Program-made: the position numbers and the translations under genes | Part shown: positions 3,095 through 54,496 of the stretch, piece by piece | Position numbering within the stretch: position 1 is the stretch's first letter | Layout of the letters: the number at the start of each line of letters is the position of its first letter | IMG/VR virus record: IMGVR_UViG_3300005910_000004 | Coordinates: 1 to 64,000 of that record | Strand: one strand, 5' to 3' | Length of the DNA: 64,000 nucleotides | Origin: a virus | Notes under the pieces: model-generated | The model's input: the letters and a program-made list of their open reading frames with translations, nothing else | The model's database searches: none | Told to the model about the DNA's origin: nothing

Positions 3095-4492
3095 ATGAGT
3101 AGATTTAATGATACAGTTATAACGCAAGACGTAAAAGAGGATACTGGTAATTCTAGCACTACTAATCTTGACCCATCTACAACCTTTACAGGAGTAGGTA
3201 AATCTACTTTAGGAGTTAACGGATTACAATGGTCACTAAAAACAACTGAGAACTGTACTGTTTGTATAGAAGAATCAGACTCACAAGATTCCAATTGGGA
3301 TATAAGTTATTGCTTTGATTATATAGCTAGTAAAGGTGGTCGTGGTGAAACAGTACAAGCTACTAAAGCATACTGGCGAGTAACAGTAACTAATCTAGGT
3401 GTAATTGCAACATCTTATTTTAGATTGTCTTCTGTACTTTGTCCTGTGGCATTACCCTTGCCTAGTGACTTAAGTGCTGATGGTAGACTTAAAAGCGAAA
3501 GTACCTTAGTAGGTCGTGAAAATACTAATAGATATGTTTGGATTAATCCCACTAATGAATTAGCTATAAGTCCAGTATATCGTATGGTTGGTACAGCTTT
3601 TGATAATGATGGTAATGCAGGAGCAGTTGATACTAATTTCTGGACAGCGGTTGTAACTAATGCAGGTACAATTGTGCAAGATGGTGGTATAGTTACATTA
3701 AATACTAATGGTACAGCAGGTGGTACTACTAGTCTTACATCAGTAAGAAGAGCAAGGTTTGTTGCAGGTTCCGCTATGTTGTTTCAAGGTGGGTTCGCTA
3801 GTTCAGCTGCAGCAGCAGGTAACACTAGACGTATAGGTGCTTATGATGATGACAATGGTGTGTTTGCTCAATTTGTAAACACTACGTTTAGCATTGGTAC
3901 AAGAAAATATGATGGCACAACAGCAGGAGTTGATACTTTAATAGATTCAGGTGATTTTAATGGTAACCTAGGTGCTTCATTTACACCAGTAGCTGATACC
4001 TATTATAAGTTAACTATTGAGTATTCTCCATTGGCAGTTCATTGGTATATCAATGGTACATTATTGCATAAAATATCTGGTGGTAATTATTCCGACACAA
4101 TGACACTGCCTATAAAAATGGAATGTAATAATGATACAGTAGACACGGCTAATACATTCAAAACCTTTGGTGCTTATATTGCAAGACAAGGTGAAATTAC
4201 AACTAATCCAACAAGTTATTATCATGCTGATGCAACATTACCGGGTGGGGTACAGTTAAAATATGGGTCTGGAATTGTTAGAGGCATAATTTTAAATAAT
4301 GCTACTAGTGGGGCAGTCATATACTTAACTGATAGTACGACCACCACAACACCAGTATTATGGAAAACCACTACTGGTAAGATATTCGATCAACCCGTAG
4401 CATTGGATTTTCACGGCATGCCATTTAGTAATGGATTGAGATTTTATGTTGATACAGGCGATACAGCAAGTGCAACAATAATTTATGAATAA
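3095..4492 (+). CDS. Putative virion/fibre structural protein
   Basis: 465 residues from ATG 3095 (AAGAGG at 3081-3086 is well spaced from it, while the earlier ATG at 3089 lies too close). Family not recognised with certainty. The sequence is rich in Thr, Asn, Gly and Val with almost no charged helices, as is usual for phage beta-structured proteins. A central part (about residues 205-300) reads like a concanavalin/laminin-G type jelly roll (FQGGFASSAAAAG..., YYKLTIEYSPLAVHWYINGTLLHK). Follows the GLUG protein by 12 bp and is likely in the same transcript. Confidence 0.5.
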   Translation: MSRFNDTVITQDVKEDTGNSSTTNLDPSTTFTGVGKSTLGVNGLQWSLKTTENCTVCIEESDSQDSNWDISYCFDYIASKGGRGETVQATKAYWRVTVTNLGVIATSYFRLSSVLCPVALPLPSDLSADGRLKSESTLVGRENTNRYVWINPTNELAISPVYRMVGTAFDNDGNAGAVDTNFWTAVVTNAGTIVQDGGIVTLNTNGTAGGTTSLTSVRRARFVAGSAMLFQGGFASSAAAAGNTRRIGAYDDDNGVFAQFVNTTFSIGTRKYDGTTAGVDTLIDSGDFNGNLGASFTPVADTYYKLTIEYSPLAVHWYINGTLLHKISGGNYSDTMTLPIKMECNNDTVDTANTFKTFGAYIARQGEITTNPTSYYHADATLPGGVQLKYGSGIVRGIILNNATSGAVIYLTDSTTTTTPVLWKTTTGKIFDQPVALDFHGMPFSNGLRFYVDTGDTASATIIYE

Positions 4493-44542: not shown

Positions 44543-45429
44543 ACTCTTATATTACGAGAAATGCCTGCACATCTTCGACTACAATATTTTATGATGGCAG
44601 GTTTTCCGCATATTAAACATTTATTATTTCTTTTGTTGTGGGGGTTCCCTTCATATAATTTTATGAAATCAGTACCATATTTAGCAATTGAATAATCTAA
44701 ATATTTATTGATATCATTACCTGTAATTAAAATCAATTGTTTATTTTTAGGAAAATATTTAAATTTAGCTTGATCTTTATCAGTCAAGAAACCTTTAGTT
44801 TCTATATAGATTGAATTTTGAATAAAATCTGGATAATATTTGAGTGTTTGATTTTCGAATTGATAAGAAAATGATTCTGAATTTCTGATGAATGAGATTT
44901 TGTGTTCTAAATTGAATATAACATATGCCAATTCATAGCTACTATCACACCAATATCCTTTGTACCATCCCGATTTTCCTCGCCCAGATCCTCTTCTATA
45001 TCCGCCAGAATGTGGATTTTTAGCAAAGTTATATCCATTCTTTTGATCGATATATAAACATTTGCGAGAACAGAAAATCCCTGGATGTGTTTTGAATGTT
45101 TTAAAGTATGTATGGCATATAGGGCATTCTATATCAATTCTAGAATCTGCATTTAGATTCCATGGTATATTTCCTTTATTAGATTTAGAAATTTTCATTT
45201 TAGTTTGTTCAGAATGGATTCTGCCTCTGGTATTATATCCTCCTGCACATTTTGAACTACAGAATTTATTTTTACGTTTTTCAAATTTCAAAATTCCATT
45301 ACATTCTGGGCATATTTTTGGATGTTGATAGTATATTTTTTCACATTCAATCTTTTGTATTTTTAATTGAATAAAATAGGGAGAAGTTTTAACACGTTCT
45401 GAAATTTTATGTTTGGTTATATCATTCAT
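44503..45429 (-). CDS. PD-(D/E)xK homing endonuclease-like protein
   Basis: 308 residues from ATG 45429 (AAAGGAAT upstream); a longer frame upstream runs into tRNA-like DNA and is rejected. Cys pairs CPECNG/CSSKC, a NUMOD-like GRIHSEQTKMKISKSNKG, CPIC, and a nuclease core CDSSYELAY...YYPDFIQNSIYIETKG giving the E...PD...ExK triad. Its last ~12 residues (YPDGVSNPESQQ) are translated from the antisense strand of tRNA-Glu. It interrupts a tRNA cluster and lies opposite to all neighbours. Confidence 0.7.
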   Translation of the reverse strand: MNDITKHKISERVKTSPYFIQLKIQKIECEKIYYQHPKICPECNGILKFEKRKNKFCSSKCAGGYNTRGRIHSEQTKMKISKSNKGNIPWNLNADSRIDIECPICHTYFKTFKTHPGIFCSRKCLYIDQKNGYNFAKNPHSGGYRRGSGRGKSGWYKGYWCDSSYELAYVIFNLEHKISFIRNSESFSYQFENQTLKYYPDFIQNSIYIETKGFLTDKDQAKFKYFPKNKQLILITGNDINKYLDYSIAKYGTDFIKLYEGNPHNKRNNKCLICGKPAIIKYCSRRCAGISRNIRVYPDGVSNPESQQ

Positions 45430-52184: not shown

Positions 52185-52344
52185 TAAATTAAATATAACT
52201 GAAAAAGAGATTATGGCAACTTCTGTTGAAAGTCGTGATTTTGATGATGGATTATTCCCTAATTGGACTGATGCTAATATATGGGATGGTGCCTTTCTAG
52301 CAGGAGTAAATTTTGCTCTCGGAAAGGTTGAGGAGGTGTTGTAA
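52168..52344 (+). CDS. Small unknown acidic protein
   Basis: 58 residues; starts inside the previous gene and ends one base into the next ATG (TAATGG). Aromatic/Asp-rich centre (FDDGLFPNWTDANIWDGAFLAG). Not recognised. Confidence 0.5.
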   Translation: MVLINNKLNITEKEIMATSVESRDFDDGLFPNWTDANIWDGAFLAGVNFALGKVEEVL

Positions 52345-52955
52345 TGGCATGTATAACATCAAGGCTCATTCAACAGAAGTTAATAACTCCACCTAAATTC
52401 TTAGCAACTAATATTCAATATGAGACGATGATGGGTAGTGTTGCTTATGGAGTATCAAGTGATACTGCTGATCTTGATATCTATGGATTCTGTATCCCAC
52501 CAAAGGATGTAATTTTTCCACACTTGGATGGTGTTATTGGTGGATTCGGAAGTCAGATTAAAAGATTTGATCAATATCAGCAACACCATATTATAGATCC
52601 TACTTTGAGAGGTGGTAAAGGTCAAGAGATTGATGTAGCAATTTATAATATAGTGAAGTACTTTCAATTATGTATGGAAAATAACCCAAATATGATTGAT
52701 TCTTTATTCACTCCACTCAGAGCAATTCTTCATATAACCGAAGTTGGTAATATGGTGAGAGGACGTCGGAAGATATTTCTTCACAAAGGATGTTGGAATA
52801 AATTTAAAGGTTATGCTTATTCTACTTTGCATAAAATAAAAACCAAATATCACCCACATGTGGAACCAGTTAAAAAATTTGAATTTTTACATAACATATC
52901 ATCCAATGTTCAGTTATTAGATATTGAACAAGAACTGAAGAAGAGAAAATTATAA
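52344..52955 (+). CDS. RlaP-like nucleotidyltransferase, N-terminal piece of a split gene
   Basis: 203 residues, GAGGAGG upstream. The minimal nucleotidyltransferase core is clear: MMGSVAYGVSSDTADLDIYGF (G-S...D-x-D). It continues with EIDVAIYNIVKYFQLCMENNPNMIDSLF and KIFLHKGCWNKFKGYAYS and stops after ELKKRKL. Relatives as I know them continue into a helical region (KFAYHIVRL...), which here is encoded separately from 53909. An endonuclease gene lies between. It may work as a two-polypeptide enzyme; substrate unknown. Confidence 0.75.
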   Translation: MACITSRLIQQKLITPPKFLATNIQYETMMGSVAYGVSSDTADLDIYGFCIPPKDVIFPHLDGVIGGFGSQIKRFDQYQQHHIIDPTLRGGKGQEIDVAIYNIVKYFQLCMENNPNMIDSLFTPLRAILHITEVGNMVRGRRKIFLHKGCWNKFKGYAYSTLHKIKTKYHPHVEPVKKFEFLHNISSNVQLLDIEQELKKRKL

Positions 52956-52958
52956 TAA

Positions 52959-52988
52959 TTCAAAGGTTATGCTTCTTCATTGGAATAA
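52959..52988 (+). repeat. In-frame echo of the upstream NTase coding sequence (FKGYASSLE then stop)
   Basis: Right after the N-piece stop codon the same frame reads F-K-G-Y-A-S-S-L-E-TAA. AAAGGTTATGCTT (52962-52974) is identical to 52806-52818, where FKGYAYS is encoded. Looks like a fragment of a second copy of this gene left by recombination. Confidence 0.6.
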
Positions 52989-52995
52989 ATTAAAA
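52983..52995 (+). promoter_or_regulatory. GAATAAATTAAAA element upstream of endonuclease
   Basis: Abuts GGATG and the ATG at 53005, same arrangement as at 29502 and 45439. Confidence 0.4.
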
Positions 52996-53004
52996 GGATG
53001 AAGT

Positions 53005-53940
53005 ATGAGTACATTTATATTATCAAGCGATGAATTAAAACAGTATATAGATGAAGGATTATCAGCTGAGAATATTTCTATTATATATGATTGTAAAAAA
53101 CGAAAGATCCTAGAATTATCTAAAAGATATAATTTAGAAATTCCACCGAGATTCTCATATAAATCGGGTAAAAACAAAGCTGGTAGAAAAAAAGGATGCA
53201 AATGGACGGATAGGCAAAAACTATTAATGAAGGGTAAATTTATTGGTGAAGATAATCCATTTTGGGGAAGATCACACTCTGATAAGACAAAAAAACAAAT
53301 GTCTAAAAATCATGCAGATTTTACTGGAGATAGAAATCCATTTAGACAATCTATTTTATCATCGGATGATAATAGAAAGGCTCATTCTGATAGATGTTTT
53401 AAATTATGGATGGGTCGTGATAAAACTTGGAGAAAGAAATTTGCTGAGAAATTAAGTAAATCGATGGCCGGGACTGATAAATTAAAAAATAATTCGGTCC
53501 ATAAAAATTATGATTGTGGTTTCATAGAAACGATAAAGGCCGGAAAAATATATTGCAGGAGTTCATGGGAAAAGATTGTAGCTAAATTATTAGATTCAAA
53601 TTCATTAGTAGTGAAATTTCAACTGGAACCTTTTACCATCCCTTTTTATGATCATGTTAAGAATATGGTTCGGTATACTAGAATAGATTTCTTTGTTGAA
53701 TTTCAAAGTGGTTACGTAGCAATATTAGAAGTCAAACCGTTAGGGATTTGTAAATTGATTGATTCTAAAATGAAACTATCAGCTTATAAGAAATATTGTG
53801 TACAAAATAATTTATTATTTGGTATTCTTAGTGATCCTGAAATTGAAATTCCGGAACGAATTAATATTATTAATAAAATATTTAAATCTTTTAATAATGG
53901 AAAAAATTATGACTCAAATTTTAAACTTATCACATCTTAG
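53005..53940 (+). CDS. PD-(D/E)xK homing endonuclease splitting the nucleotidyltransferase gene
   Basis: 311 residues, AAAAGGATGAAG upstream. N-terminal helix-turn-helix-like region (SSDELKQYIDEGLSAENISIIYDC), NUMOD-like repeats (GEDNPFWGRSHSDKTKKQMSKN; GDRNPF), and a nuclease core CRSSWEKIVAKLL...TRIDFFVEF...AILEVKPLG giving E, D and ExK. It ends 32 bp inside the next gene piece. Similar in design to the endonuclease at 44.5-45.4 kb. Likely cuts uninterrupted copies of the nucleotidyltransferase gene. Confidence 0.72.
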   Translation: MSTFILSSDELKQYIDEGLSAENISIIYDCKKRKILELSKRYNLEIPPRFSYKSGKNKAGRKKGCKWTDRQKLLMKGKFIGEDNPFWGRSHSDKTKKQMSKNHADFTGDRNPFRQSILSSDDNRKAHSDRCFKLWMGRDKTWRKKFAEKLSKSMAGTDKLKNNSVHKNYDCGFIETIKAGKIYCRSSWEKIVAKLLDSNSLVVKFQLEPFTIPFYDHVKNMVRYTRIDFFVEFQSGYVAILEVKPLGICKLIDSKMKLSAYKKYCVQNNLLFGILSDPEIEIPERINIINKIFKSFNNGKNYDSNFKLITS

Positions 53941-54379
53941 CGATGAACAATTATTAGAATATCATTCATTATATAAAACTATGTTGGATCATAGTAAGAG
54001 AACACAATCAATCCATGATCATGGACTCGATTGTAAATTCGCATATCATATCGTCCGATTGATTAATGAAGTTGAGCAAATTCTTGTTAATGGTGATTTA
54101 GATATCACTCAAAACAGAGAGCAATTGAAATCTATACGTCGGGGAGAATGGACTGAGAAAGATATTCGATCATGGTTTGAGGAAAAAGAGACTGCACTTG
54201 AGAAAATGTATGTTGAATCTAAACTACAAAATAGACCAGATGAATCCTTGATTAAAGAACTTTTACTTGATTGTTTAGAGCATCATTATGGTAGTTTATC
54301 TAAATGTGTTACTATTGTTGATTCTTCTTTATTAGCATTAAAACAAATAAAAGAGATTTTAGATAAAAACGGAATATAA
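53909..54379 (+). CDS. RlaP-like nucleotidyltransferase, C-terminal piece of a split gene
   Basis: 156 residues from ATG 53909; an upstream in-frame ATG at 53798 lies deep in the endonuclease gene and is unlikely. LDHSKRTQSIHDHGLDCKFAYHIVRLINEVEQIL and REQLKSIRRGEWTEKDI are the conserved C-terminal part of the family, continuing the fold of the N-piece at 52344-52955. No intein residues or splice-site motifs are seen on either side. The ribosome site is weak (ATGGAAAAA). Confidence 0.75.
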   Translation: MTQILNLSHLSDEQLLEYHSLYKTMLDHSKRTQSIHDHGLDCKFAYHIVRLINEVEQILVNGDLDITQNREQLKSIRRGEWTEKDIRSWFEEKETALEKMYVESKLQNRPDESLIKELLLDCLEHHYGSLSKCVTIVDSSLLALKQIKEILDKNGI

Positions 54380-54386
54380 TTAAAAT

Positions 54387-54462
54387 GGGCCCGTGGCCAA
54401 GTGGTTACGGCGACAAACTCATAATTTGTGTATCGGCGGTTCGATCCCGTCCGGGCCCACCA
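54387..54462 (+). tRNA. tRNA-Met(CAT), CCA encoded
   Basis: GGGCCCG/CGGGCCC acceptor, D arm GCC/GGC, anticodon arm ACAAA-CTCATAA-TTTGT, T arm with TTCGATC, A-CCA. The second CAT tRNA of the window; one may be Ile2-type. Confidence 0.88.
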
Positions 54463-54468
54463 TTTTAA

Positions 54469-54496
54469 AGCACATCTATCTTTTGATAGGTGTGCT
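54469..54496 (+). terminator. Hairpin after tRNA-Met
   Basis: AGCACATCTATC-TTTT-GATAGGTGTGCT, 12-bp stem with one G-U pair, followed by TATT. Confidence 0.7.

Follow-up and report, generated by a model that had tools for sequence, protein, structure and literature searches.

How can the gene of a phage enzyme that is split by a homing endonuclease gene (HEG), with neither an intron nor an intein, still give a working protein? A review of T4-type phages describes the reassembly of enzymes split by HEGs as a fascinating open question (PMC2988022). The locus considered here lies in a stretch of 64,000 nucleotides (hereafter the window) at the start of the virus record IMGVR_UViG_3300005910_000004 from IMG/VR, which has 141,546 bases. 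It carries the gene of RlaP, the RNA ligase-associated pol-beta nucleotidyltransferase (PF10127), whose role has been discussed elsewhere (PMC7824862). An earlier note on this DNA had described an RlaP-like gene cut by an endonuclease gene into pieces of 203 and 156 residues. We propose that the HEG is free-standing and belongs to a splitting cassette that also provides a paired docking module: a tail at the end of the upstream half and a head at the beginning of the downstream half. These probably hold the halves together so that RlaP stays active without splicing.

The N-terminal piece (52344-52955, 203 aa) matches PF10127 (E-value of 9.9e-13; 48.8 bits for a cut-off of 23) and positions 32-198 of phrog_388 (9.4e-22), and the C-terminal piece matches the remaining third of phrog_388 (3.2e-20). 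The likelier start of the C piece is the ATG at 53909 (156 aa), which has GGA 8 nt upstream; the alternative ATG at 53897 (160 aa) has no evident ribosome site. Either start lies inside the end of the nuclease gene, with an overlap of 32 nt or 44 nt respectively. Relatives from named phages, for instance Caulobacter phage CcrSC, Rhizobium phage RHph_I1_18 and Xanthomonas phage XacN1, encode RlaP as one intact gene. In these proteins, the equivalent of N residue ~168 runs directly into that of C residue 27-33. Therefore, rlaP is truly interrupted in the window and the arrangement is not due to chance. Furthermore, residues 169-203 of the N piece (the tail) and the first ~30 residues of the C piece (the head) are extra sequence (Table 1). 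Outside them, the N part shows 34-54% identity to the closest intact proteins of named phages and 44-66% to most IMG/VR relatives, and the C part mostly 39-57% to intact relatives. The Pfam and phrog_388 matches and the intact relatives thus agree with the earlier note on the split, and the ATG that it had assigned to the second piece, within the end of the endonuclease gene, is the likelier start. However, it overlooked the tail (~35 aa) and the head (~30 aa), which are not RlaP sequence, and the related splits described below. In the nuclease, the DNA-binding motif NUMOD3 (1.8e-5) and the N-terminal TnsA-like domain (1.9e-6) both score above the Pfam cut-off. Relatives found at the same break conserve D228 as well as the E-V-K stretch, of which K244 is the last residue.

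Table 1. Features of the split rlaP locus (positions in the window)
Feature	Position	Strand	Description
RlaP nucleotidyltransferase, N part proper (residues 1-168)	52344..52847	+	GS, DxD and third active-site Asp; PF10127
Tail of the N piece (residues 169-203)	52848..52952	+	Homologues in all ten split genes, none in ordinary intact relatives
Degenerate copy of exon stretch 52801-52841 (FKGYAYSTLHKIK)	52957..52995	+	Score of 41 versus <=30 in 300 shuffles
Homing endonuclease gene	53005..53940	+	311 aa; NUMOD3 and PD-(D/E)XK (TnsA-like) domain (Pfam)
Head of the C piece	53909..53992	+	Homologues in all ten split genes, from both sites A and B; begins within the 3' end of the nuclease gene
RlaP nucleotidyltransferase, C part proper	53993..54379	+	Helical domain, RRGEW motif; phrog_388 positions 225-341

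In total, 118 distinct rlaP loci were collected by scanning IMG/VR and prokaryote genomes. The earlier note had envisaged relatives in which the two parts would be unrelated proteins; instead, 103 relatives have both in one frame, as an intact gene with a short linker. Eight genes are split at the site of the window (site A: window, L003, L005, L017, L030, L039, L053 and L111) and two distinct genes at another one (site B: L070, and the identical L071, L072 and L073). Three others (L031, L048 and L069) are single-frame genes with an insert of 50-75 aa at site A. The remaining two are L402, which is interrupted by a group II intron, and L068, which is cut off at a contig end. Scanning with the C piece gave no new locus, nor did the window nuclease alone as a query; L111 was found with an alignment of four nucleases. 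Insertion at site B occurred after QWQEH, in a hairpin loop ahead of the third catalytic Asp. Hence, in these genes, the two pieces each hold part of the active site.

Homologous tails and heads are present in every one of the ten split genes, irrespective of the occupant of the gap, and have no counterpart in ordinary intact relatives. The tails follow the pattern ..F....NI....SL..VE.EM..R.L, ending at the stop codon, and the heads the pattern M..L..LSD.EL.EY..L.K. With a model built from site-A tails only, site-B tails come out top among the non-members of 7651 ORF ends (E-values of 0.0079 for L071-73 and 0.23 for L070). Likewise, when 18,692 starts are ranked with the head model from site A, the heads of site B come near the top. 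L111, which was found via its nuclease, has a tail and a head that match models blind to it (34 and 28 bits). To control for helical bias, the site-A set was used to score 3000 natural pairs, each made of the end of an ORF and the start of the next one. The maximum of this null was 45.3, versus 64 for the site-B pairs of tail and head and 58-97 for the site-A pairs, each left out in turn. Outside rlaP, the module was found neither in 2 Mb of loci nor in 14 whole virus records; tblastn of one tail against named phages gave no match, and comparison with known families and structures gave none that was convincing. We also considered that the tail and the head might be duplicated flanking rlaP sequence. 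Only weak look-alikes were found, and the same pair occurs at site B despite other flanks, which speaks against such an origin.

The splits arose repeatedly, and recently. A tree built from the core, with 116 rows and without tail and head, requires eight changes to account for the eight site-A splits, and well-supported branches force four or more of these changes. The AU test rejects a tree in which these splits form one clade (p-AU of 0.0009, with a log-likelihood lower by 187). Split L030 and intact L011 share 86% identity, and L070 and L071 stand beside intact L018. DNA alignments of both sets (L030/L011 and L070/L071/L018) show homologous flanks with the insert between them. Since the tails and heads are homologous in independent insertions, they must travel with the cassette or be exchanged with it, and were not formed anew each time. 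The scattered distribution and the presence of a closely related empty site may reflect homing, by which the nuclease would enter intact alleles.

How the two parts give one enzyme is the next point. No intron family of Rfam was detected in 52300-54480 even at an E-value of 10, the only hits being a tRNA and weak chance matches, and none was found at curated thresholds in nine further split loci. The same library detected the group II intron of L402, where the relative's gene is broken at a third place, which provides a positive control. Similarly, no intein family appears among the Pfam matches of the pieces at E-values up to 1, and the tail (35 aa) and the head (30 aa), inspected by eye, lack the constant Cys/Ser and Asn junction residues. 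These results bear out, for the locus in the window, the absence of intron and intein that the earlier note had proposed. An unrecognised intron, a split intein or a programmed bypass could nevertheless rejoin the parts: HEGs often sit in introns or inteins, rlaP of L402 does contain a group II intron, and the HEG of T4 gene 60 is linked to ribosomal bypass. We consider such rejoining highly improbable in view of these searches, of the location of the N and C pieces in different frames, more than 900 nt apart with stops between them, and of the conservation of the tail and the head as protein, which spliced-out or bypassed sequence would not need.

The split genes also show the marks of selection on both halves. 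The split gene of the window retains the active-site residues GS...DxD...D, as do the other nine, and the eight conserved positions that were checked are kept in all ten, bar one conservative E-to-D change. Between split L030 and intact L011, dN is 0.09 for the N part and 0.11-0.14 for the C part, with dS saturated or equal to 1.3; intact L009 and intact L011 differ by 0.04 and 0.10, respectively. Judging from these sequence comparisons, the split pieces evolve about as slowly as their intact relatives and are under strong constraint. For L070 and L072, dN is 0.12 and 0.16 in the core, where dS is likewise saturated or above 1, and reaches 0.57 in the tail (dS of 1.25) and 0.61 in the head. 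The tail and the head thus change much faster than the core and are under weaker constraint. It could be argued that a gene interrupted by a selfish element and left with two separate start sites is dying or dead, and that the tail and the head are incidental read-through. This is very unlikely, given the catalytic positions kept throughout, the dN of about 0.1 with saturated dS as in intact kin, the homology of tails and heads across independent splits and, by eye, the ribosome-site-like sequences that precede the N and C pieces alike. Thus, the alternative left by the earlier note, two polypeptides or an inactive enzyme, is better resolved in favor of two polypeptides, and inactivity is disfavored. 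Activity of the N piece alone, the C piece being a by-product, seems scarcely plausible: at site A, all three catalytic acids are indeed in the N piece, but the C piece retains its motif and evolves under constraint, and the site-B genes have the same tail and head although their active site is divided. No RNA ligase partner was found in this record with PF09414, the search with PF09511 having lacked a positive control.

Predicted structures of single-chain relatives suggest how the tail and the head could fit together. The model of L069 has a mean pLDDT of 94.5, and its insert is predicted to form three helices (165-176, 185-194 and 199-214; block means of pLDDT of 91-94). This model matches A0A292GK16, a phage protein of 287 aa without insert, with a TM of 0.93 by the length of the latter and an rmsd of 2.0; therefore, the insert would leave the core unchanged. 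The model of L048 has the same order of helices, with a less sure insert (block means of 52-92). The insert of L069 resembles the tail plus the head of L039 (0/400 shuffles). If so, the tail would give two helices and the head a third one, with the break in the loop between them. Compared with the natural pairs, the three single-chain inserts give marginal results (35, 83 and 35 of 3000), and the link of inserts to tail and head, which is weak for L048 and L031, comes mainly from the comparison of L069 with L039.

The gap between the pieces has various occupants. PD-(D/E)XK nucleases are found in the window, L005 and L030 and, by homology, in L039 and L111. Those of L005, L030 and L039 show 26-34% identity to the window nuclease over the whole alignment, and that of L111 is 40% identical to it. 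L017 carries an HNH-like ORF (by eye, no Pfam match), L053 a GIY-YIG nuclease gene on the opposite strand, and the site-B loci (L070-L073) a GIY-YIG nuclease gene. In L003, only 128 nt separate the pieces and the tail and the head are still present. One frame of this spacer can be aligned to residues 285-317 at the C-terminus of the nuclease of L030, which has 329 residues (0/500 shuffles). This indicates that the nuclease decayed whereas the split stayed. Hence, the tail and the head of the cassette are associated with three classes of nucleases and survive the loss of the nuclease. These data also bear on another role for them: the halves might assemble via the ordinary RlaP interface, and the tail and the head might serve the cassette otherwise, as nuclease target, in nuclease regulation or in nuclease binding. 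Their weaker constraint would fit this, as would the predicted structure, in which site A is flanked by two helices of the C-terminal domain, so that native contacts might be enough by themselves. We nevertheless regard it as unlikely, since the tail and the head persist in L003 beside a mere remnant of the nuclease, are the same across nuclease classes and with the opposite-strand nuclease of L053, and keep their protein sequence at both sites, although the flanking DNA differs.

Docking through the tail and the head therefore remains our preferred explanation, and the following course of events can be proposed. The nuclease would cut intact rlaP at a conserved codon stretch in a loop, and repair would bring in the tail, a stop, the nuclease gene, a start and the head. 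The upstream half would thereby gain a tail of ~35 residues with a stop codon, and the downstream half a head of ~25-30 residues with its own start codon. The start of the C piece overlaps the end of the nuclease gene by 4-53 nt in the window, L005, L017, L030, L039, L070 and L072, which suggests coupled translation. The two helices of the tail would then pair with that of the head, holding the two polypeptides in the native RlaP arrangement. The RNA-repair nucleotidyltransferase would thus reassemble as two chains, without RNA or protein splicing, and the nuclease could later be replaced or lost.

Phage enzymes that are split by HEGs and work in pieces are already known. The split NrdA of Aeromonas phage Aeh1, encoded by nrdA-A / mobE / nrdA-B, has been reported to be functional as two polypeptides (PMC2988022). 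As in split rlaP, the enzyme gene is interrupted by a HEG with neither intron nor intein, the upstream half gains a C-terminal tail and the downstream half an N-terminal head. These tails of NrdA are reportedly needed for assembly. By analogy, Aeh1 NrdA may be viewed as a precedent in principle for the docking of two chains in RlaP. However, its tail and head score below 0 bits against those of rlaP, which does not support a common origin. To our knowledge, the Aeh1 split is a single event, whereas the rlaP pair recurs in ten splits, at two sites and with three nuclease classes. Without the module, our finding would be one more Aeh1-like split gene. Other phage enzymes whose halves work together, split with a HEG or an insert in between, are T4 topoisomerase 39/60 with mobA and DNA polymerase 43A/43B of phages 25 and 44RR (PMC2988022), but they concern other genes, and no shared mobile tail/head module has been reported for them. 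The split gene is like the RlaP family in sequence and active-site pattern, and differs from it by its two chains. The so-called fractured genes, in which split inteins surround a free-standing HEG, are said to have the same order of gene half, HEG and gene half, with matching extra segments that bring the halves together. However, these segments are split inteins that splice, whereas those of rlaP are short and predicted to be helical, have no intein features and would not splice. The recurrent homologous tail/head pair would be the new part; we found no report of such a pair in the literature searched, which included few subscription papers.

The presence of this pair in ten split genes makes the question of reassembly testable. 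There is about an even chance that it reveals a third general lifestyle of HEGs beside introns and inteins, i.e. a mobile splitting cassette that carries a heterodimerising module, enters several sites, is associated with unrelated nucleases and outlives them. If the docking proposal is true, it would explain how the catalytic palm can tolerate being split (site B), and would add a non-splicing answer to those of introns and inteins. It would also provide a small natural module for deliberate protein splitting in the laboratory.

Several sequences close to the breaks deserve mention. The exon stretch that adjoins the break of the window on its upstream side has its degenerate copy in the spacer before the nuclease. 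Part of this copy pairs with the start region of the nuclease gene in a weak hairpin, with an RNA fold z of only -1.15. An operator-like copy of the target is known for I-TevI; the copy in the window may be of this kind or may be a trace of insertion. As a general feature, an exon copy upstream of the nuclease was rejected, being significant only in the window and suggestive at site B, and not elsewhere. Between the stop of the N piece and the GIY-YIG gene, L070 and L072 have very stable hairpins (L070:3023-3053 and L072:3235-3275; z of -4.5 and -5.2), which hold a look-alike of the exon end EQWQ. From their sequence and position, these hairpins are candidates for a terminator or for translation control of the nuclease.

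Other mobile elements occur in or near rlaP. In L402 (IMGVR_UViG_3300017388_000001, a virus contig of 436 kb; 3400-4000), rlaP is broken after NPNMI by an insert with a domain of a group II intron at its end (RF00029 of Rfam, 60.6 bits). Group II introns have long been believed to be absent from phages (PMC12350094). In Rhizobium phage RHph_I1_18 (L074:3358-6352), the gene of a Seg-like endonuclease extends into the start of intact rlaP and is accompanied by a GIY-YIG gene downstream of rlaP, which indicates that the rlaP region draws endonucleases repeatedly. The virus of the window has four more NUMOD3-bearing ORFs (45157-45225 on the minus strand, 80409-80654, 84529-84591 and 108246-108500), none of them flanked by the tail/head module; one adjoins an ORF at 105861-107936 that, by eye, is RNA polymerase beta'-like. 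A tRNA gene (54387-54459, anticodon apparently CAU) lies directly downstream of the C piece in the window. Around the split rlaP of L017, eight tRNA genes are found within 8.6 kb, a cluster that fits a role of RlaP in tRNA repair. Finally, a single frame of 747 codons in L364 (3710-5950) fuses RlaP to a sequence that, by eye, resembles nucleotidyltransferases of the CCA-adding type.
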